From Chloroflexaceae bacterium (GTDB lineage Bacteria; Chloroflexota; Chloroflexia; Chloroflexales; Chloroflexaceae): 53,912 bases of DNA. A program made the translations under genes and the position numbers. This document shows, piece by piece, positions 10,019 through 24,763 of the stretch (positions within the stretch are counted from its first letter, which is position 1; the number at the start of each line of letters is the position of its first letter). The stretch is taken from assembly GCA_012031225.1 (NCBI GenBank), contig JAAUTZ010000002.1, positions 80,415 to 134,326 on the forward strand, written 5' to 3'. The notes below the pieces were generated by a model, which had not been told where the DNA came from, made no database searches, and worked only from the letters and a program-made list of their open reading frames with translations.

Positions 10019-13000
10019 ATGGCTGGAAATCGTGCGATTTATACACGGGCAATGGAGCAGCACCGCGAAGCGGCGCGGGCGAACAAGTGGGATGAGGCTC
10101 TAAAGAATGCTGCCCGCGCTATGCAGGAGTTTCCCCAAGACACCGATGCGCGGGTGGCGGTGGCTGTTGCGCTGTTCCACTCCAATCGCCTCCCGCAAGC
10201 CTTGCAGATGTTCGCGGAGTTGCGTGCCGCCGACCCTCAGAATGAGCTGTTTATTGGCTATATGGCCCGCACCCAAGAGAAGCAGGGCGACCGTGATACG
10301 GCAATTCAGACCTATCGCACGCTGCTGAGTCTGTATCAAGGCAAAGGCGCAGTAGCCCAAGTGATTGATATGCTACGGGCGATCCTGAAATTACGCCCAG
10401 AGCTGGATGCCGACCGTGAGCAGCTGGCCCAAACCTTGCTCGATGCCCGCCAGCCCCAGAATGCCCTACGCGAACTGGTGACGCTTGCCCAACGCTATCA
10501 GGCACAGGGGCGGCTTGATCAAGCTGTCACCTATGCCGAACAGGCCCTGAAGCTGGATGCCAACAACCGCGACCTGAAAGAGCTGCTGATGCAGCTGCGC
10601 GAAGCCCAAGCGGTGGGAACAGATGCGCCTGCCACAGGCGGCGGTGCTACCGCGCCGGCCGCTGCCGAACGCGGCTCTGGTGGGGTGCTGTCGGCGAATG
10701 TGCGCGAGAACCAATTCGCGCTGGAGCAACTCCTCGCAGAGGCGCAGGAGTTGCAGGAAGCCGAACAGTATCAAGATGCGGTTGCCCGCTATGAACAGGT
10801 GCTAGCGGCGGGCTTAGATCGTTCCGATGTGCTGTATAGCTTAGGCTTGCTGTATCAGCAAGTAGGCGATCATCCTGCGGCAATCCCGATCTTGGCGCGT
10901 GCCGCCCGCGATCCTGAGTATGGGCTATCGGCGCACTATGCCTTAGGGACATCCTATTCAGAAATGGGCCAGCCCCAGAAAGCCGCGCAGGAGTTTGAGC
11001 AGTCCATCGGTATGGTTGATCTGGAGACGGTGGGCAAAGCCGAAGCCGAAGACCTGATCCAGATGTATGAGCAAGTCACGGGCATTTATCAGCAGCTGGG
11101 CGATCTAGCGCGGGCAGCTTCGCTTTACTCCACGCTGGCGAGTTTCCTAGAGAGCAAACGCTGGGGGCGGGAACGGGCGGCGGTATTCAAAAAGAAAGCC
11201 AAAGATCTGACCGACCAGACGATGCTGGCGAAGTTGCGGGCACTTGGCACGGGTGTGCTGAGCATGGTGACTGACCCAGAGCCAGAACCTTTGCACAGCA
11301 GTGCTAGCCCCGGCGATACGACCCCAGCGGAGGAGATCGCCGAACGCTGGGGCACGATTGCCCCAATGATTGAGATGCTACGCTCGGACAATGTGGAGGT
11401 CTCCGCGACGGGCTTACTGCGGCCCATCAGTGAGATCCCGCTCCCAAGCATCAGCACCGATCCGATGGATGTGCTGGATACGCTCCCACCCGCCGAAGAT
11501 GCCCCCAATGTTACGATCACCAAGCTCGATCCAACCGGCTTGGATGAGCAGACCGAACGCTGGGTGGTGCTGAGTGAACGCTACATGGAGCAACGTTTGT
11601 TCGATGCCGCGCTTGATGCGTGTTATGAGGTCATTCGGCTCAACTTGGATTACCTGCCGATCCACCTGCGCTTGGGGCAGATCTATGAAATGCGCCACCA
11701 GCCGGACGAAGCCCTCACCAAGTATCAGACCTTGATTGACACCTACAATATACGCAATGAACCGGAAAAGGCGATTGATGTTTATATGCGCTATATTGAG
11801 CTTGCACCGGAAGCAACGAATGCTCGGGCCCGCCTTGCTGATCTGCTCAAGAATGTGGGGCGCACCGACGAAGCCGCCGAGCAGATTGCGTATGTTGCCA
11901 GTGGCTACTTCCGCATTGGACAGACCAACCGTGCCTTAGAGGAGTATCGGCGCGGCTTGCAGAACGCACCCCACAACCGCACGCTCCGCAGCGAGTATGG
12001 CATGGCGCTATTCAAGCTCGAACGCTACGAGGCTGCGCTCAATGAGTTTCATAAGGCGGCTGATGCTGACGACCCGATAGCGATTGCCCACATCAATATG
12101 GTGCTGGTGGTGCTTGCCGAATCGCCCGATGATATTTGGGACTCACTGGCGGCTCTGCTGGAACTGCTCGAACGGGGTGCATACCGTGCCAGCGATGCCG
12201 TGCAGAGCGAGTACCGTGCAGCCCTTATGGTCAATGATAGCCCGCTCTTGCACTATGTCCTTGCCATGATTCAGCGCAAAGCCAATCAGCACTCATCAGC
12301 CCTGCTGGAACTGGAGCAGGCTCTCGTGCTGATTAGCTCCGCGCCACACGCGCTGCTGCCGCCGGTATTGGTGCGCCAAGCGATGGCTTCAAGCTACCTC
12401 GCGCTTGGGCAGCATAGCCAAGCCCTCAGCCAGCTCAGTGCGATCCAACGCGAGGGAGGCGTAAATGCCGCCGCATCCCAAGCCCGCCACAGCTTCGCCC
12501 GCCCGCTCGATCAGGGGGAGCTGGTGCAGCAAATGGCGGATGCCTACGCTGAGAGTGATGATCTCGAAGGAGCCGAACGGGCGTTGCGTGAAGCCCTTAA
12601 GCTGCTCCCCTACAATCGGGCGATCTACACCAAATTGGCGGATGTGTGCTTCCGGCAGGGCAAGCTGGGTGAAGCCCTTTCGAGCCTCGAAAACCTTGCC
12701 ACCTATTATGAAGATCGGCAGGAGCTTGATGCCGCCATCGAGACGCTGCAATATGCCCTGAAGCTCGCACCGAGTAGTATTCCCGTTGGGCTGCGCCTCG
12801 CCCGCATGTACATCCGGCGCGGCTACCCCGAACAGGGCGTTGAAGGGCTGAAGACAGTCGCCGAGCTGCAACGCCGCGAGGGGCTGATCAAAGATGCCGT
12901 AGCCAGCCTGCACCAAGCTGCTGAGGTGCGCTACATGCTCGGCCAGCACGCCGATACGCTGGCGCTCTATGATCGCATCATCCAGATTGCCCCCAACGAC

Positions 13001-13342
13001 GTAGAAGCCCGCCAGTGGCGTTCGCTGATGTTTACCTTGACAGGCAATAAAGTAGAAGCAGTCACCGAGAAGAAACAGATCGTGCGGATCCTGCTGCAAG
13101 CCCGCGATCTGGATAATGCCATTGCCGAACTGCACCAGATCATCGGCTTGAACCAGAGCGACACGGAAGCCTACTATATGCTGGGGGATGTGCTGATGCG
13201 GCGTGGCGAGTATGGGCAAGCCGCCCAACTCTACGGGCGTATGCTTCGCATGGACGGGGTTGAGGTTGAGCGCGTGGAAGCCTTGCAAGCTGCCGCCCAG
13301 CAGATGTACAAACAGAGCCAAGCCCGCTCGGTATCCTCGTAG
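10019..13342 (+). CDS. Large TPR-repeat protein
   Basis: 1107 aa, almost entirely made of tetratricopeptide repeats: many 34-residue helix pairs with the W/L/G/Y/A/P pattern, for example AIQTYRTLLSLYQ, AVTYAEQALKLD, AIPILARAARDPEYG, AIDVYMRYIELAPEATNAR and AIETLQYALKLAPSS. A less ordered acidic linker (about residues 410-510) separates two TPR blocks. There is no signal peptide or membrane segment, so it is probably a cytoplasmic scaffold. GGGAGA lies 11 nt upstream of the ATG. It sits between argF and cdaA on the same strand, with only 32 nt before cdaA, but nothing in the chain reveals its partner. Confidence 0.85.
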   Translation: MAGNRAIYTRAMEQHREAARANKWDEALKNAARAMQEFPQDTDARVAVAVALFHSNRLPQALQMFAELRAADPQNELFIGYMARTQEKQGDRDTAIQTYRTLLSLYQGKGAVAQVIDMLRAILKLRPELDADREQLAQTLLDARQPQNALRELVTLAQRYQAQGRLDQAVTYAEQALKLDANNRDLKELLMQLREAQAVGTDAPATGGGATAPAAAERGSGGVLSANVRENQFALEQLLAEAQELQEAEQYQDAVARYEQVLAAGLDRSDVLYSLGLLYQQVGDHPAAIPILARAARDPEYGLSAHYALGTSYSEMGQPQKAAQEFEQSIGMVDLETVGKAEAEDLIQMYEQVTGIYQQLGDLARAASLYSTLASFLESKRWGRERAAVFKKKAKDLTDQTMLAKLRALGTGVLSMVTDPEPEPLHSSASPGDTTPAEEIAERWGTIAPMIEMLRSDNVEVSATGLLRPISEIPLPSISTDPMDVLDTLPPAEDAPNVTITKLDPTGLDEQTERWVVLSERYMEQRLFDAALDACYEVIRLNLDYLPIHLRLGQIYEMRHQPDEALTKYQTLIDTYNIRNEPEKAIDVYMRYIELAPEATNARARLADLLKNVGRTDEAAEQIAYVASGYFRIGQTNRALEEYRRGLQNAPHNRTLRSEYGMALFKLERYEAALNEFHKAADADDPIAIAHINMVLVVLAESPDDIWDSLAALLELLERGAYRASDAVQSEYRAALMVNDSPLLHYVLAMIQRKANQHSSALLELEQALVLISSAPHALLPPVLVRQAMASSYLALGQHSQALSQLSAIQREGGVNAAASQARHSFARPLDQGELVQQMADAYAESDDLEGAERALREALKLLPYNRAIYTKLADVCFRQGKLGEALSSLENLATYYEDRQELDAAIETLQYALKLAPSSIPVGLRLARMYIRRGYPEQGVEGLKTVAELQRREGLIKDAVASLHQAAEVRYMLGQHADTLALYDRIIQIAPNDVEARQWRSLMFTLTGNKVEAVTEKKQIVRILLQARDLDNAIAELHQIIGLNQSDTEAYYMLGDVLMRRGEYGQAAQLYGRMLRMDGVEVERVEALQAAAQQMYKQSQARSVSS

Positions 13343-17126: not shown

Positions 17127-20100
17127 ATGCACTATCGGATGACGCATTGGTTGGGCTTGATCCTGCCAGCTCTGTTGGTTCTGAGTAGTTTCGGCATTGG
17201 GCCGATGCCGATTGGCACGACACCTGCGCCAGTGCAGGCGGCCGTGCCGGAATTGCGCCTATCTGGGGAACTGCCCCCGCCATCACCAACCATCCCGATT
17301 GCGGCGGATGTACGCGATGGCAATGTCACCGCCCAATTCGATGGCGAGCGCAACAACTACCGCTTGGGGACAGCGGTGAGTACGGCGGGCGACATCAACG
17401 GCGATGGCTTGGCGGATTTGATCATCGGGGCACCGGGCAACAATCGGTTGCTCGTGTATCTGGGCAACCCAGATCTGAGCCAGACCCAGCCGCTGTCTTT
17501 CACCGTTGGTGCGGCTGGGTTCGGGAGTGCTGTGAGCCTTGCCGGTGACACCAATGGGGATGGCTTGAGCGAGTTACTTATAGGCGCACCCGGCGTAAAT
17601 CGGGCCTATGTCTATCGCTTCGACGCGAGCCGCTCACGGTTTGTATCCGTTGCACCTGCACCAATTTCCGGCGGGCTGAGCTTCGGCACGGCTGTCGCCA
17701 CCGCAGGCGATGTGAACGGCGATGGCTTCGCCGACATCATCATTGGTGCGCCGGATGTCAACCAAGCATCGGTCTATAGTGGGGCTTCACTGGCAAGTGC
17801 GCCAACGCCCATCGCAACCTTGAACGGTTCTGGGCAGTTTGGGGCAACGGTAGATACCGCAGGCGATGTGAATGGCGATGGCTTTGCCGACATCATTGTC
17901 GGTGCGCCGGGCGACAACGAAGCCTATATCTACTTGGGCAGTGCGACGGGGATCAGCAATACTCCCGCCCTGACGCTCACTGGCACCGGTGCATTTGGCA
18001 CGGCTGTCGCTACCGCCGGTGATGTGAATGGCGATGGCTTCTCCGACATCATTGTCGGTGCGCCCGAGTACGAACAGCTCGGCTCCTTAATTCCGGGTGG
18101 GGCCGCGTTTGTCTACTACGGCGGCAGCACAGGCATCGTAGCCACCAGCGTCGTAACGCTCAGCGTGTCCGTGCCCTCACCAGTGGCAGGCGATCAGTTT
18201 GGGGCGACAGTCAGCACGGCGGGCGATCTGAATGGGGACGGCTTGACGGATCTGGTGATTGGCGCACCCGGTCGGGCTGATGATACGGGCGAGGTACATC
18301 TCTACTACGGGCAGCTTACCCCGCTCAGCCCTAGCCCCAACCACACGCTTGCCGCCCCCGCCGGCACCACCAGCTTCGGCGCGGCAGTCAATACGGCGGG
18401 TGATCTGAATGGCGATGGCCTCAGTGCGATCATTGTTGGTGCGCCCACGACCGATGGAGCGGGCACGGCTCGCGGGCGGGCCCTGCTCTACGCTGGCGCA
18501 AAAACGCCTGTGCAAGCTACCGCCAACCTCAGCCTGAGCCGCGCCGGACAGCCAAGCAGTACCAACTTTGGGCACAGCTTCACCGCCGCAGGCGATCTGA
18601 ATGGCGATGGCTTTGGCGATGTGGCGACTGCTGCGCCGAATAGCGATGCCGTGTATCTGCTGTATGGCGCACGCGGTGGGCTAGACCCCAGCGTGCTTAC
18701 GCCAACCCTCACGTTGACGGAGACGGGCCGCTTTGGAGCCAGCATGGGCGGCGCAGGCGATCTGAACGGCGATGGCTTCGATGACCTGATTATCGGCGCA
18801 CCTACGCTCGCTATCTCCGGTACGAATCAGGGGCGCGTCTACGCCTATCTCGGTAGCCCTGACGGATTGAACCTCGAACCAGTCTGGATGATGGATGGCG
18901 AGAGTTCCGGCGATCAATTTGGCGCATCGGTGGCGATGGTCGGCGATGTCAACAGCGACGGCTACATGGATGTGTTAATTGGTGCGCCGAACCACACCCC
19001 ACCCGGCATCACCGATACGCAGCGGATTGGCAAAGCCTACCTGTATTACGGCACACCCGATCCGCCCTACCTCTCCACGTCTCCCGATTGGGTGGTGCTG
19101 GGCACCGCCGCCGAAGAGCAGGTTGGGCGTGCAGTGGGTGCGGCGGGCGATCTGAATGGCGATGGCATCGCCGATCTCGTGGTTAGCGCACAGCGCACCG
19201 CGACCCTCACCCCAACGCTCCAAGTGATTGGCGAAGCCTACGTCTTCTACAGTCGTGGCGCAGGCCCCCAGATCAGCGGCAGCCGGGCCGTGGGCAGCCG
19301 GGCCAATGCTGATCTGGTGCTGAGCGACAACATCATCAGCGAGAACTTTGGGGAGGTGGTGGGCAGCGCAGGCGATGTGAATGGCGATGGCTATGCCGAT
19401 CTGCTGCTTGCCACGGCCCCTTCCAGCAATGCCGACCGCACCTACCGGGTCTACTACGGCTCGCTCGAAGGTATTGGCACAGATGCCGATTGGCGGGTTG
19501 ATATGATCTCAGTGAGTGAGTCACGCCAAACTGCGGCCGGACTTGGCGATGTGAATGGCGATGGCTATGCCGACGTGCTGGTGAGCAATACACTCAGCAA
19601 TGCAACTAATTTTGCAAGCCGCATGCAGCTCTTTCTAGGATCAGCCGACGGACTGCCCACGACAGCAAGTCAGGTCTTTACCTTTTTAAATACGCAGTCA
19701 ACGCGAGGACTTGGCTTTACTGTCGGCAGTATTGGGGATGTGAATGGCGATGGCTTTGCCGACATCGGCACAGGCTTTATCTTGGGGGCGCGGCTCGACA
19801 TCTTCTACGGCAATGGCGGCAGTGGCGTGCCGCTCCGCCCGCAGCAACGGCGCGGCTCGCAGCCGAATGTGCTGATCGGCGTGCAGGGCAACAGTACCCC
19901 CTTTGACCAGATCCGGCTGAGTGCCGTCGCGCAGATGCCGCTTGCCGATCTGCCCGTGCGCCTTGAATACCAGATGGCTGATCTAGGGCAGAGCTTCGAC
20001 AGCCCGTCTGCCTTCACGGGCATTGCCGATCCGTTGCGAATGGGTGGGGTTTTTTCGCCGACCCTCTCCGGGCTAGAAGCCGGCGGAAGCTATCACTGGC

Positions 20101-22220
20101 GGATGCGCCTGCTCTACCCCAATGGCAATCGGCTAGGGCAGTTGCACAGTCGCTGGTTTGCCCCGCCGCGTGGTGGCTTGCTGGAAGAGCAGGTGGCAAC
20201 CGGCTTTGGCTTGAGCCTCTTCAATCGGGATGTGCAGCAGGGCTTGGATGTGTCGCACATCTTTGAAGCGGAGCTAGGCAACGCAACGGCAACGGGCTAT
20301 CGGTGGGACTTTGGTGACAGCTCGCCGATCACAGCCACCACCGCCCCAACGATCACCTATCGCTATGCCCTGCCCGGCAGCTACACGGCCCAAGTCACGG
20401 CTGAGTTTACGCCTCCAACTAGCCCACAAAACGTAGAGCGCACGGCTCGCACGCTGGTACGGGTGCCGGGGGTGATCCTTGATCTGCCCGATCCGGTGTT
20501 TATCGGGCAGAGCCGCCCACTCACCGCAACCTTGTTCAATCGCACACCGCTCACCTACACTTGGACGGTGCAACTGGCAGACGGCGCGACAACCGTTGTG
20601 ACCCGTAGTACGGGATTGACCGAGACTAACGTTCTGCTCTTTGATTTCACCCAGCTTGGCCTCGCCACGGTGACGGTGCAAGCCGATACGCCAGAAGGCC
20701 CCTTCGTGAGTAGCCGCAGCTTCTTGGTCAATGAGCTGCCCGTAGATGAGGTGCAGATTGCTTCATCTGCGCCGGATGAGGTTGGTGAGACAACCACGAT
20801 CACGATCACGGCACTCGGCGCACGGCCCGGTATCTCGGTTCTCAGCACGACAGTTGATCTGGGCGATAGCTCCGATCTGCTGCGCCTGCCCCAATCACCC
20901 GCGCCTGAAACACTCGTCATTTCGCATACCTATCAGGCGCAGGGGGTGTATACCTTGACGGCGGTGGTGAGTAACGGCTTTGTCGGTGTGACGGCAACGC
21001 ACCTGATCAGCATCACCGATGTTGCGATTAGCCAACCTGCGCTGAGTGTGCCGCTGACCACGACGGTAGATAGCCTCACCACGCTGGTTGCATCAGTGCA
21101 GCGCGGCACAGGCATCACCTATACATGGAACTTCACAGGCGCTGGGCAAACCGATGTAATCTCTGGCGCACAAGGCATCACCAATGTGCAGCAGTTCCGC
21201 TATCCGGCGGTGGGAACCTACAATCCGCAAGTAGTAATTGCCAATAGCATCAGTGGGCCCGTTACCCTCACTGCACAGATAGATGTGCTGGATCAGCCAA
21301 TCACAGGGCTAGTGCTGAATGTCCCCGCCAATGTTGCCTTTGGCGCAACAGCGGCAATGAGTGCTACCGTGCAGACGGGTACGAACGTGATCTACACATG
21401 GGATTACACCGGCGATGGCGAGATAGACCGCACCACGCCCGCGCAGGGGCGCAGCGATAGCACTAGCTTCACTTTCCCTGCGCCCGGCACCTATACGGTA
21501 ACTGTCACCGTTCGGAATGGGGGAGGCCCACCCCTCACGGCGGAACAGCAGATACAGGTCGGCGATGCTCCAATCGAAGGGCTACAAGCGACAGCCGATC
21601 CGACGACGGTAGCGGTGGGTACGCCAGTGAACTTTGCTGCATCGGTGCAGGCTGGCTCGAATGTTAGCTATAGCTGGAACTTCGGCGATGGGAATAGCGC
21701 AAGCGGTGCGAATGTTAGCTACAGCTTCACCCGCGGCGGAACGTTTAATGTGGTAGTGACGGCGACGAATGGAGCCGGGAGCGTGCAGCAGACCGTGACG
21801 GTGCAAGTCACTGCGCCCGAACTAGCCATCAGCAAGCAGGCGAATCGGGCAGTTGTCCCGCCGTTGGGCCTGTTAGAGTACACCATCGCCGTCTCGAACA
21901 GTGGCAATGTGGTTGCCCAAAATCTGGTCATCACCGATGTGCTGGGCAGCGACATAGACTTCGTGCTGGCGAGCGATGGCGGAGTCTTTAATCTTGAGCA
22001 GCGCACGGTGCGCTGGAATGTACCCGAACTGCGCCCCGGTCAGCTCATTGTGCGCGAGTTTACGGTGCGGGTAACGATCTCGTCCGGCACGGTTCGCAAT
22101 GACCGCTTCGGTGTCTCGGCTGAGGGTGTCACGACGGTAGGGCGCGACATTGTGCTGACACAGGTGGGGCAGCCGTCCGTAACAGATCGGGTGTACTTGC
22201 CGTTTGTGGTGCGTGAGTAG
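17127..22220 (+). CDS. Secreted FG-GAP/PKD repeat surface protein
   Basis: 1697 aa. A signal peptide (residues 1-39, ending near PVQAA) precedes 14 integrin-like FG-GAP repeats (about 85-900). Each has a GDxNGDGxxD calcium loop, for example AGDVNGDGFADIIIGAP. Fourteen would form two seven-bladed propellers. A fibronectin-like region (about 925-1020) follows, then about six PKD-type beta-sandwiches (about 1038-1565; YRWDFGDSSP, YTWDYTGDGEID, YSWNFGDGN) and a DUF11-like repeat (about 1566-1680; LEYTIAVSNSGNV). The last residues are TDRVYLPFVVRE, a tail shared with the beta-helix protein nearby. It is probably a large cell-surface adhesin or scaffold. A strong GGGGGAAA precedes the ATG. The repeats make the DNA itself repetitive (GATGTGAATGGCGATGGC-type units). 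Confidence 0.85.
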   Translation: MHYRMTHWLGLILPALLVLSSFGIGPMPIGTTPAPVQAAVPELRLSGELPPPSPTIPIAADVRDGNVTAQFDGERNNYRLGTAVSTAGDINGDGLADLIIGAPGNNRLLVYLGNPDLSQTQPLSFTVGAAGFGSAVSLAGDTNGDGLSELLIGAPGVNRAYVYRFDASRSRFVSVAPAPISGGLSFGTAVATAGDVNGDGFADIIIGAPDVNQASVYSGASLASAPTPIATLNGSGQFGATVDTAGDVNGDGFADIIVGAPGDNEAYIYLGSATGISNTPALTLTGTGAFGTAVATAGDVNGDGFSDIIVGAPEYEQLGSLIPGGAAFVYYGGSTGIVATSVVTLSVSVPSPVAGDQFGATVSTAGDLNGDGLTDLVIGAPGRADDTGEVHLYYGQLTPLSPSPNHTLAAPAGTTSFGAAVNTAGDLNGDGLSAIIVGAPTTDGAGTARGRALLYAGAKTPVQATANLSLSRAGQPSSTNFGHSFTAAGDLNGDGFGDVATAAPNSDAVYLLYGARGGLDPSVLTPTLTLTETGRFGASMGGAGDLNGDGFDDLIIGAPTLAISGTNQGRVYAYLGSPDGLNLEPVWMMDGESSGDQFGASVAMVGDVNSDGYMDVLIGAPNHTPPGITDTQRIGKAYLYYGTPDPPYLSTSPDWVVLGTAAEEQVGRAVGAAGDLNGDGIADLVVSAQRTATLTPTLQVIGEAYVFYSRGAGPQISGSRAVGSRANADLVLSDNIISENFGEVVGSAGDVNGDGYADLLLATAPSSNADRTYRVYYGSLEGIGTDADWRVDMISVSESRQTAAGLGDVNGDGYADVLVSNTLSNATNFASRMQLFLGSADGLPTTASQVFTFLNTQSTRGLGFTVGSIGDVNGDGFADIGTGFILGARLDIFYGNGGSGVPLRPQQRRGSQPNVLIGVQGNSTPFDQIRLSAVAQMPLADLPVRLEYQMADLGQSFDSPSAFTGIADPLRMGGVFSPTLSGLEAGGSYHWRMRLLYPNGNRLGQLHSRWFAPPRGGLLEEQVATGFGLSLFNRDVQQGLDVSHIFEAELGNATATGYRWDFGDSSPITATTAPTITYRYALPGSYTAQVTAEFTPPTSPQNVERTARTLVRVPGVILDLPDPVFIGQSRPLTATLFNRTPLTYTWTVQLADGATTVVTRSTGLTETNVLLFDFTQLGLATVTVQADTPEGPFVSSRSFLVNELPVDEVQIASSAPDEVGETTTITITALGARPGISVLSTTVDLGDSSDLLRLPQSPAPETLVISHTYQAQGVYTLTAVVSNGFVGVTATHLISITDVAISQPALSVPLTTTVDSLTTLVASVQRGTGITYTWNFTGAGQTDVISGAQGITNVQQFRYPAVGTYNPQVVIANSISGPVTLTAQIDVLDQPITGLVLNVPANVAFGATAAMSATVQTGTNVIYTWDYTGDGEIDRTTPAQGRSDSTSFTFPAPGTYTVTVTVRNGGGPPLTAEQQIQVGDAPIEGLQATADPTTVAVGTPVNFAASVQAGSNVSYSWNFGDGNSASGANVSYSFTRGGTFNVVVTATNGAGSVQQTVTVQVTAPELAISKQANRAVVPPLGLLEYTIAVSNSGNVVAQNLVITDVLGSDIDFVLASDGGVFNLEQRTVRWNVPELRPGQLIVREFTVRVTISSGTVRNDRFGVSAEGVTTVGRDIVLTQVGQPSVTDRVYLPFVVRE

Positions 22221-22262
22221 GTTGTTTGGGCGGAAAGCCGTGCCAGCAACACAGCTAAGGGC

Positions 22263-22294
22263 GGGGCGGGGGCATTGGTAGTCCCCGCCCCTTT
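22263..22294. terminator. Convergent intrinsic terminator
   Basis: GGGGCGGGG (22263-22271) and CCCCGCCCC (22283-22291) form a perfect 9-bp GC stem with an 11-nt loop, followed by TTT. It lies between the rightward FG-GAP gene and the leftward fluoride-channel gene and could end both. The T run is short. Confidence 0.6.
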
Positions 22295-22676
22295 ACGGCA
22301 GCAGCCGCACGATTGCCGCCCCGGCTGCCACACCCGCAATGCCGAGTGCCACACTGCCGCCAGCGTAGATCAGGGCGGGCAGGCGCATGCCCTGCTGGTA
22401 GAGGCTGTAGGCTTCATAGCTAAAGCTGGAGAAGGTTGTTAAGCCGCCCAGAATGCCAGTGACCAGAAATAGCCGCCACGCGATAGTAAGTGGCAGGCGC
22501 GTACTGATTAGCTCTAGCACGATGCCGATGAGGAAGCAGCCGCCGAGATTGACGATCAGCGTACCATAGGGGTAGATTGGCCCGAGATGGTCTATCGCCC
22601 ACAACGCTACAGTATAGCGCAAATTCGCGCCAATCGCTGCGCCAAGTGCAATCACGAGCATATAGCCAATGTTCAC
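22293..22676 (-). CDS. crcB: Fluoride channel, CrcB/Fluc family
   Basis: 127 aa with four membrane helices. Family marks are GAAIGANLRY near the start, then YGTLIVNLGGCFLIGI, then the GILGGLTTFSSFSYEA signature with the Phe/Thr-rich fluoride pathway. It exports fluoride as a dual-topology dimer. I start at GTG 22676: AGAGAGGAAG lies about 10 nt upstream, while the longer reading from 22709 adds a basic stretch that is not part of the family. No fluoride riboswitch is evident just upstream; the gene follows the beta-helix gene by 41 nt. Confidence 0.9.
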   Translation of the reverse strand: MNIGYMLVIALGAAIGANLRYTVALWAIDHLGPIYPYGTLIVNLGGCFLIGIVLELISTRLPLTIAWRLFLVTGILGGLTTFSSFSYEAYSLYQQGMRLPALIYAGGSVALGIAGVAAGAAIVRLLP

Positions 22677-22717
22677 GGGTTGCCCGCTTCCTCTCTTGTG
22701 CTTGCCCAAGCTCCGCC

Positions 22718-24763
22718 CTAGCCCCCGCGCCGCACGAGGGGCAAATACACGCGCCTGATCTCGCGGACGATACTCACCACCTGTTGCGCGGAGGTTTGCG
22801 CCCCGTCCGCTGCCGATGGGTCAAATACCGTTACTGCAACCTGTGCCGCAGTGGTTAGGCGGGCCGCCGGAAGCGTTGCGCGTAGCTCACTGGCACTAAC
22901 AAACGTTGTGGCGAGCGGTTGGCCATTCCAGCGGACCACACTCTGCGCGGTGAAGTTTGCGCCTTGTACAACCAACGTTTGGGCATCTGCTGTGCCCGCC
23001 ACAAATATGCTCGGCTGCACTGCCCGCAGCACTGGGCCTTGGGGCGGTACGGGCGTAGCGGTTGGCTCTGGGGTGGCCGTGGGTGGCGGTAGCTCGGCAT
23101 ACTCATACGCGCCAAGATCGCACGCCGCTCCCTGTGGGCGGGCAATGCCGCGCTGATCGGTGGGCGGGCACCCACCCACCGCCGCATCTCTGGCTGGGCT
23201 AGCCGGTGCGAGGGCCAGCGTCAGCGTGGGGCCGCCGTTGTCGTCCAGCGGCAGCAGCAGCGGGTCGGCATAGATCGGATTGGCCGTGATATTGTTATTC
23301 ACATCATTATCATACGTTGGTTTGGTGCGTGGGTATTGGATGTTGCCGCCGCCGTCGTTCATGGGGCGGTTGGTGTGGTAGCCTTGCCAGCGCGTCTCAG
23401 AGGGCTGATCTTGCTCATTCAGGATGTTGTTTACGAAGATCGTATTGCGAAGCGTGACCACCCGCTGCGCATCGTTGCCGCCGCCACCGTGCAAGGCTCC
23501 GCCCTGATAGGCGGCGTGGTTGTTGGCGAAGGTGGTGTAGGCAAGCTCGATCTTGCCTAGCGTGATCGCCATTGCGCCGCCCTGCCCAACCGTATTGAAG
23601 GGTGCGGAGGTGCGGTTATTTTCAAAGGTGCTGTTCTGCACTACACCATTGCCAAGAATATACAGCCACGCCGCGCCGCCCTGTCGCAGAGCCGTGTTGC
23701 CGGTGAACAGCGCGTCGCTGATCAGCAGGTTGAACTCATTGTCACCGCCGGCGTGGTCATCCTCGATATGATAGATCGCGCCGCCTTGGCCGCCTTCGTT
23801 GGGCTGGCTGCTCCGCCCGCGAGCGTGATTGTTGCGGAAGGTCGAACGCTCGAAGGTGGCGCGGGTGTTGCGGTTATCGGAGATAACCGAAGCCGATGCG
23901 CCCCCGCCACGCACGGCGGTGTTGCCCTCGAACACACTGCCGCAGATGGTATATTCATTCAGCGTATCTGGGTTGAAGTCATTCCACACCCCATCAATGT
24001 GGATTGCACCGCCATAGCCGCGCACAATCCCGCCCGCCGTATCATCTACGGCTTGGTTGCCCATGAAGCGGCTATTGAACACCTGCACCCCAACGGCAAT
24101 CACACCGAAAGCACCGCCATTGCCAGCGACGTTGTTTTCAAATACGGAGTTGACAATAATCAATTCGTATGAGTTGTTCGCAAAGATCGCCCCACCTTGA
24201 TTATCCTCGGCGGTGGTGCTAGTGGTGCTGTTATTCGCAAAGGTGCTATTGATGATATGCAGGCGCGTGCCGGGGCTACCCGATATGATTGCACCGCCGG
24301 AGTTCTCCCCAACCCCGCTGCCTGCCGGAGCTTTGCCATTGATCAGGCGCATATTTTGAATCGTCAAATGATTGCCGCCTTGCACAAAGGGGTTCTGGAT
24401 GATGCGGGTTTGTCCCTGCCCATCCAGCGTAATCAGCCCGCCGCCATCCAGCACGGTGGTGCCTGCGCGTACCTGCAAAGGCGCATCAAGCGGGATCGTA
24501 ACCGGTGCGTTGCCGGGGCCACACGCAAAGCGGATCTGCCCGCCCTGATCGAGCGCAGCTTGCAGCCCGGCACGGGTGCAGTCCGTCACCGTAATCGGAT
24601 TGGCGAGCGGCACGGGGGCCAGCGGGGCGGGGCAGGTGCTGATACCACTAGCAAACTGTTCCGATGGCGGTGTTTGGGCATTGGCAAAGGTGGCATAGGC
24701 AATGCCAACGAGCAGCAGCAACGCTAGACCAACGCTAGACCAATGGACGCGGATACGAGGCAT
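22718..24763 (-). CDS. Secreted right-handed beta-helix protein with choice-of-anchor-Q-type domain
   Basis: 681 aa. A signal peptide (LALLLLVGIAYATFANA, cut near AQT) is followed by many beta-helix rungs with the NSTFANN / SVFENN / GGAI pattern (about residues 80-470). Then comes a segment ending DLGAYEY (TDQRGIARPQGAACDLGAYE, about 525-545), which I match to the choice-of-anchor Q domain, then a Pro/Thr linker, then an IPT/TIG-like fold (about 575-665; IFVAGTADAQTLVVQGANF). The chain ends RVYLPLVRRGG, like the FG-GAP protein. It is probably exposed on the cell surface or secreted, with polysaccharide or surface binding likely; no catalytic residues can be named. AAAGGAG lies 8 nt before the ATG. 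Confidence 0.8.
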   Translation of the reverse strand: MPRIRVHWSSVGLALLLLVGIAYATFANAQTPPSEQFASGISTCPAPLAPVPLANPITVTDCTRAGLQAALDQGGQIRFACGPGNAPVTIPLDAPLQVRAGTTVLDGGGLITLDGQGQTRIIQNPFVQGGNHLTIQNMRLINGKAPAGSGVGENSGGAIISGSPGTRLHIINSTFANNSTTSTTAEDNQGGAIFANNSYELIIVNSVFENNVAGNGGAFGVIAVGVQVFNSRFMGNQAVDDTAGGIVRGYGGAIHIDGVWNDFNPDTLNEYTICGSVFEGNTAVRGGGASASVISDNRNTRATFERSTFRNNHARGRSSQPNEGGQGGAIYHIEDDHAGGDNEFNLLISDALFTGNTALRQGGAAWLYILGNGVVQNSTFENNRTSAPFNTVGQGGAMAITLGKIELAYTTFANNHAAYQGGALHGGGGNDAQRVVTLRNTIFVNNILNEQDQPSETRWQGYHTNRPMNDGGGNIQYPRTKPTYDNDVNNNITANPIYADPLLLPLDDNGGPTLTLALAPASPARDAAVGGCPPTDQRGIARPQGAACDLGAYEYAELPPPTATPEPTATPVPPQGPVLRAVQPSIFVAGTADAQTLVVQGANFTAQSVVRWNGQPLATTFVSASELRATLPAARLTTAAQVAVTVFDPSAADGAQTSAQQVVSIVREIRRVYLPLVRRGG

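Follow-up and report, generated by a model that had tools for sequence, protein, structure and literature searches.

Why do two exported proteins that share no domain end in the same short tail? The question is raised by a 53,912-nucleotide stretch of the genome of a Chloroflexaceae bacterium (assembly GCA_012031225.1, contig JAAUTZ010000002.1), called the window here. In it, an FG-GAP protein (P0001) and a beta-helix-like protein (P0002) both carry a terminal YLP box, a motif of nine residues with the consensus R-V-Y-L-P-L-V-x-R. NCBIfam release 20.0 already holds this motif as NF050076 ('sort_motif_YLP') and NF053834 ('ultrashort_CTERM'), both described as 'YLP-box putative sorting motif-containing protein'. 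Because the motif is listed there, the window tails are a new pair of its members and not the discovery of a tail, and our advance lies in the anatomy of the box and in candidates. What is new is the freedom of its position, its trade with lipid anchors, its place outside folded domains and its co-distribution with a PorU-like C25 peptidase. We give about even odds (roughly 0.5) to the reading that the box is a portable motif for retention on the envelope, equivalent in function to a lipobox, and most likely docks to a putative receptor. Our literature search of the open PubMed Central (PMC) set found no paper on a bacterial YLP box; a 'YLP motif' reportedly described in Drosophila cuticle shares the name.

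Two unrelated exported proteins of the window end in a YLP box

The features concerned are as follows, in window coordinates.

17127..22220, plus strand: P0001, exported FG-GAP / PKD / DUF11 protein of 1697 amino acids (aa), box-bearing; from the sequence and profile searches
17127..17240, plus strand: signal peptide of P0001; limits by eye, simple hydrophobicity/AXA rule
22188..22217, plus strand: YLP box 1, RVYLPFVVRE, the last ten residues of P0001; from profile scores and disorder in the AlphaFold2 (AF2) model
22718..24763, minus strand: P0002, exported beta-helix-like protein of 681 aa with choice-of-anchor Q and CoaZ/TIG, box-bearing
24674..24763, minus strand: signal peptide of P0002; limits by eye, same simple rule
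23099..23266, minus strand: choice-of-anchor Q domain (NF041518), P0002 residues 500-555; E-value (E) 2.4e-23
22805..23035, minus strand: TIG / CoaZ repeat, P0002 residues 577-653, directly before the box; TIG E 3.6e-5, NF058597 E 1.8e-22
22721..22753, minus strand: YLP box 2, RVYLPLVRRGG, the last eleven residues of P0002; NF050076 17.1 bits in a six-frame search

The original prediction, that two otherwise unrelated proteins share a tail, holds. Read in the sequence, P0001 ends ...QPSVTDRVYLPFVVRE and P0002 ends ...VREIRRVYLPLVRRGG, and profile searches of both proteins find no domain common to P0001 (FG-GAP/PKD/DUF11) and P0002 (beta-helix-like repeats, choice-of-anchor Q, CoaZ, TIG). The Gly/Pro-type linker that was thought to precede the tail is not general: the residues are GQPSVTD in P0001 and SIVREIR in P0002, and other boxes are preceded by anything from Thr/Pro linkers to the closing strand of an Ig-like domain.

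Against NF050076, whose curated cut-off is 15 bits, P0002 scored 17.1 bits in the six-frame search, 17.3 with the tail alone and 12.5 in the full-length scan. Full-length P0002 was also over the 10-bit cut-off of NF053834 (11.8 bits). The P0001 tail alone stayed below the first cut-off (13.9 bits) and passed the second (11.9 bits), while full-length P0001 gave no listed match.

The box marks exported proteins of Chloroflexota

We searched the genome of the window (G000) with NF050076 and obtained 48 places at E<=10, of which 30 were over the cut-off. About 0.3 chance matches are expected among these 30, because the weakest of them has E 0.27 for the whole genome. Across the phylum, 54 of 201 genomes had a match at E<=0.25, with 1 to 33 matches each. 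Controls from other phyla were 14 named genomes, none of which had a match at that threshold, and a scan of the whole genome collection with a strict DNA pattern for RVYLPLVVR. The scan returned 17 loci, 16 of them titled Chloroflexota or recognised Chloroflexota taxa; the remaining one, from Clostridiales, is a short chance frame. Judged by reading frame, the 17 comprise seven C-terminal boxes, three N-terminal boxes and seven false ones. These phylum and control counts, together with the scan, make the phyletic restriction of the box strong. A single match in a genome is often due to chance, and many of the single-match genomes among the 201 are probably false.

The false boxes that we set aside include a cytoplasmic-looking family, present in many genomes, with RVYLPLVVRAPAD inside a domain (L092, L094, L100, L105, L108, L114, L122, L123). 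Others lie in wrong reading frames (L089, L099, L102, L121, L130, L192), in a transmembrane (TM) protein (L128), in a NUDIX-like protein (L132) and in a 25-aa frame on C56.

What proteins carry the box? The 48 places are represented by 43 open reading frames (ORFs), as four were skipped (short or holding X) and two places share one ORF. On these 43 ORFs we found 56 Pfam families at E<=1e-5, each in at most four members. The clients include PKD, FG-GAP, beta-propeller and LRR proteins, a substrate-binding protein and peptidases (C25, S8, S9, M12, M23).

The tail had been expected to be enriched in exported proteins, and this is borne out. Among ORFs with a visible N-end, 23 of 33 C-terminal and 8 of 8 other box ORFs of the genome had a signal peptide by our rule, against 60 of 373 ORFs of a background sample (20 x 20 kb plus the window). 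The relatives gave similar figures, 33/36 and 6/7. ORFs with a hidden N-end were left out of these rates (4 own and 16 relatives' C-terminal ones; 3 own and 1 relatives' among the others). The signal-peptide and lipobox rules used throughout are simple patterns of our own making, not trained predictors, and several own ORFs that fail the former look frameshifted or cut. Of the 373 sampled ORFs, 3 have a box-like string within 20 residues of their end; all three begin with a hydrophobic leader, one of which the rule missed.

The box lies outside folded domains in structure models

One may ask whether the tails simply form the final strand of a folded domain, or resemble each other by chance. 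The box indeed stands, in many proteins, within a few residues of the last Ig-like strand. Against this, AF2 leaves the box unstructured in both cases modelled. At the end of P0001, the last DUF11 domain has a predicted local distance difference test (pLDDT) score above 90; the tail falls to 51-58 with no secondary structure. In the substrate-binding protein of the same genome, residues 1-50, including the box, have pLDDT 45-52, and the rest is mostly above 90. In these models, then, the box is a flexible, exposed peptide and part of no domain. The domains before it are, moreover, unrelated, and chance would account for only the 0.3 of 30 matches given above. We find this explanation hardly credible.

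The box is not tied to the C-terminus

Of the 48 places in the genome, 37 lie within 20 residues of the stop (one of them, on C56, surely by chance) and 11 lie elsewhere. Boxes directly or soon after a signal peptide were seen on C42 (Big_1/invasin-like), C39 (S9 peptidase), C125 (the substrate-binding protein), C128:110049 and C18; the remaining non-C-terminal ones are in linkers or cut at a contig start. One protein on C18 (L047) has two boxes, about 55 residues after the signal peptide and at the end. The relatives show the same freedom. Among 60 fetched places, 52 boxes were C-terminal, five N-terminal and two internal, with one chance frame (L192), and 29 listed phylum loci gave 18 C-terminal, 3 N-terminal and 8 false boxes. 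The three N-terminal loci of the whole-collection scan are titled Oscillochloris, Roseiflexus and Thermoflexus.

We compared 88 C-terminal with 18 N-terminal or internal boxes, leaving out the C56 and L192 places and duplicates, and the consensus was equal at both kinds of place, a sameness that the finding profile enforces in part. V/I before the Y and R/K at +6 dominate at both. L and P are present in all of these boxes, but the counting pattern demanded both. Among the C-terminal boxes, 33 of 88 stop exactly at the +6 residue, and 0 to 14 residues follow the box. No TM helix was found after the box; one scanned C-terminal ORF has a TM-like stretch in its last 60 residues, before the box. 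The idea of a sorting or anchoring signal survives in part. A signal shared by exported proteins is upheld by unrelated architectures, signal peptides, a position outside the folded domain and the replacement of lipid anchors; a specifically C-terminal signal is not, as boxes also stand after signal peptides and in linkers.

As a side observation, the box may have dialects by genome (G031, G040 and G099, with L119, L129 and L131; G115/G083/G049). Candidates are Lys-ended tails (VYLPLVTK) in one genus and a relaxed Y-L (VHIPLVVR, LFVPLVAR, YFIPLIGR) in another, and the tails of C25 peptidases differ in parallel with them.

The box stands where homologues carry a lipobox

The substrate-binding protein of the genome has a plain signal peptide followed by the box in place of a lipobox. 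In a family alignment of 27 rows the lipobox Cys is present in 25, the two rows without it being this protein and L212. Its seven closest relatives are all lipoproteins (LAAC or LTAC).

CAP proteins gave a similar picture by eye. Among 30 CAP loci, four have an N-terminal box (L245, L246 and L247 with VYVPVIR; L250 with VLLPYMAK), four a C-terminal box (L258, L259, L261, L263, with variants such as VHIPLVVR) and nine a lipobox (11 proteins). A doubtful internal WLPLTL was seen in two (L248/L249), and the remaining 11 are unclear or show neither kind of anchor. Box and lipobox occurred together in none of the 30 loci. In adjacent C25 pairs of G000 and G085, one copy is box-tailed and the other has a lipobox and no box. 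In the G000 pair, on C42, L340:7998-11015 ends in a box, and L340:11517-13661 has an LAAC lipobox and no box. Overall, no lipobox was found in any of 69 box ORFs with a signal peptide; of the sampled exported ORFs, a background that holds some false exports, 8 of 58 had one (p=0.0014). An anchor swap was also considered for the S9 peptidases and was not seen, the box being present in one own paralogue only.

In homologous substrate-binding, CAP and C25 proteins the box thus occupies the place of the lipobox, apparently in the same role. The mutual exclusion of the two would also fit another explanation, in which the box is an export or passage signal across an outer envelope layer and loss of the lipobox means release instead of re-anchoring. 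A multilayered envelope, with an outer layer and a lattice-like protein layer, is described for Litorilinea in PMC13319060 and would suit this explanation. A substrate-binding protein would be of little use if released, and by reading only, an ABC-ATPase-like frame lies just upstream of this one; a possible cell-wall enzyme type is also found among the box proteins (two with a Peptidase_M23 match). We regard release as quite improbable.

Sortases and related enzymes do not follow the box

As noted in the original prediction, the window has no sortase or processing enzyme for the tail. We looked for a co-occurring enzyme genome-wide, and the outcome was divided: sortase, exosortase and rhombosortase were negative, and a PorU-like C25 peptidase was positive.

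Could a classical sortase (PF04203) read the box as a degenerate LPXTG? The box contains L-P, and sortases are common in these genomes, with six in G000. Their distribution is mismatched, with a sortase in 14 of 15 box-rich and 14 of 19 box-poor genomes (p=0.2). G165 has five box matches (L193, the one read, is C-terminal) and no PF04203 match, whereas four f5 genomes have three sortases each and no box match. In an LPXTG substrate the motif is followed by a TM helix and a basic tail, and no TM helix or TM-length stretch comes after the box. Real LPXTG-type proteins exist beside box proteins. We rejected LPXTG substrate status on these grounds and consider the sortase explanation very improbable. 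Exosortase (PF09721) was over the cut-off in 1 of 34 genomes. Rhombosortase (TIGR03902) was over it in 0 of 34, with weaker matches also in 14 of 14 controls. The distributions of both do not follow the box, and they too were rejected as partners.

The LPXTG-type proteins belong to a family, F1 (L329, L332, L335, L336, L338, L348), encoded beside the box-tailed C25 peptidase, at least some members having DUF11-like repeats. They end in an LPxT[GAS]-like motif, a TM helix and a basic tail and are apparently true sortase clients adjoining box clients.

Two further genes of the window are recorded here. The gap between the two box tails holds a CrcB-like gene (PF02537, E 2.2e-27) at 22293-22709 on the minus strand. 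A 1107-aa protein of TPR repeats is encoded at 10019-13342 on the plus strand, upstream of DAC-domain (DisA-like) and YbbR-like genes.

A PorU-like C25 peptidase is co-distributed with the box

One box protein of the genome is a C25 peptidase matching the PorU model, and G000 has three C25 matches (best E 7.8e-70). All 15 genomes with at least four box matches have Peptidase_C25 (PF01364, E<=1e-10), as do 14 of the other 186 (p=4.9e-15). This test was made after sortase, exosortase and rhombosortase had been tried, and it joins box and C25 counts from separate scans on the assumption that the genomes are the same (their labels agree). In the 34 chosen genomes, C25 was present at that threshold in 15/15 box-rich and 0/19 box-poor ones, with a weak partial match in G017. 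Control families track the box less closely (sortase p=0.2; CAP p=0.0076; substrate-binding protein p=0.0018). The genomes are related by descent, so the C25 p-values overstate independence. Some box matches of the 201-genome count also lie in C25 proteins, themselves box clients.

The best solved relative of these proteins is PorU (6za2, E 4.9e-8), whose GH and TC sites align with theirs, and the catalytic His855 and Cys889 are kept in 21 of 21 aligned C25 proteins. Most C25 peptidases themselves end in a box-like tail (VTLPLVQR, VALPLVQR, LYLPITRR, IYLPAIVK, VYLPLVRAE).

Such a co-distribution, the catalytic residues and the tails raise the possibility that a PorU-like C25 peptidase recognises the box and would, as PorU does with type IX clients, process or transpeptidate exported proteins, here by a nine-residue tail and without an outer membrane. 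Several observations speak against it. An enzyme that transpeptidates C-termini would have no use for boxes at the N-terminus or in linkers. No C25 match at E<=0.001 was obtained in G147 (4 contigs, 99% complete) or in G034, and both carry true C-terminal boxes (L124 and L112). Relatedness inflates the p-values. The C25 proteins are box clients, and copies with a lipobox or TM anchor and no box exist. The C25 set is heterogeneous, five of its loci lying in a radical-SAM / S24-S26 operon. Conversely, two genomes have C25 and no box match, G061 with an enzyme lacking the box tail and G075 with one ending IYLPAIVK. We hold recognition by C25 to be the main rival to our favored reading, though a rather unlikely one. 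C25 may be one of the box clients, the enzyme that processes them, or both.

The operon just mentioned is conserved (L333, L334, L342, L344, L347) and joins C25 with radical-SAM-like, S24/S26-like and third-family (F4) genes, named by eye; it is perhaps a peptide-modification system. Separately, two C25 proteins have a box-like string roughly 70-100 residues before the catalytic domain (L284 at residue ~403, TYLPLVLR; L291 at residue ~430, VFLPLVSK; numbering of the frames read), which could be a pseudo-substrate in a prodomain.

A proposed model of envelope retention

We favor envelope retention, at the even odds given at the outset. Proteins exported by Sec would be kept on the cell envelope by a YLP box displayed on a flexible end or linker, outside their folded domains. 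The box would work at either end of the mature protein as well as in a linker, and it would do the job of the lipobox in relatives of the same proteins. Docking would be non-covalent and leave the box uncut; the box would probably lie as an extended strand in an envelope receptor dedicated to it, such as an outer-layer or surface-layer protein. PMC13319060 describes the envelopes of Chloroflexota as multilayered, with no BAM genes and no clear or established lipid outer membrane. The lattice-like layer of Litorilinea would be a natural place for a receptor.

Four observations weigh against envelope retention by docking. Among the neighbours of box genes we found no receptor and no recurrent partner, except for box proteins and a response-regulator-like group (6 ORFs in 5 genomes). 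The tight C25 association is not predicted by pure docking, unless C25 is merely a frequent client. The substrate-binding relative L212 has neither lipobox nor box, and loss of the lipobox could mean release into the medium. Finally, S9 paralogues other than the box-bearing one have plain signal peptides.

In several Chloroflexota families, whose envelope is poorly understood, a large fraction of the surface proteins bear the motif. Should it prove to be a true anchor, we know of no shorter one used across a genome; it would also be position-independent and could take the place of a lipid. The survey yields a set of surface proteins for experiments, points to C25 as a candidate enzyme family and, in the natural anchor swaps, offers a way of putting the question to the test.

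Comparison with known systems

NF050076 and NF053834 describe the same motif as the window tails. The name 'ultrashort_CTERM' implies a C-terminal tag, whereas we find the box also after signal peptides and in linkers. The bacterial lipobox stands at the same place in homologues; the box differs in having no Cys and no lipid attachment site and in occurring at the C-terminus as well.

LPXTG/sortase, PEP-CTERM/exosortase, GlyGly-CTERM/rhombosortase and MYXO-CTERM/myxosortase likewise mark the C-terminal ends of dozens of unrelated exported proteins across a genome. The LPXTG, PEP-CTERM and GlyGly-CTERM tags are tripartite and include a TM helix. So, according to its description, is the MYXO-CTERM tag. 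The box, in contrast, lacks a TM helix, and those of their enzymes that we searched for are not distributed with it.

Clients of type IX secretion carry a folded C-terminal domain and are processed by PorU, a C25 peptidase. The box resembles that system in its co-distribution with a PorU-like C25 peptidase that is tagged itself, C25 being the type IX component searched here. It differs in its tag, which is nine residues long and disordered in the model of the P0001 end, and in its setting, as the phylum is described in PMC13319060 as lacking BAM and an established lipid outer membrane. Speculatively, the box might be a position-independent nine-residue anchor, interchangeable with lipidation and read by a PorU-like C25 peptidase or by a complex of its partners, in bacteria without an outer membrane or type IX machinery. 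This would be a separate surface-anchoring system whose enzyme carries the tag of its own clients, an idea that we put forward tentatively and think unlikely.

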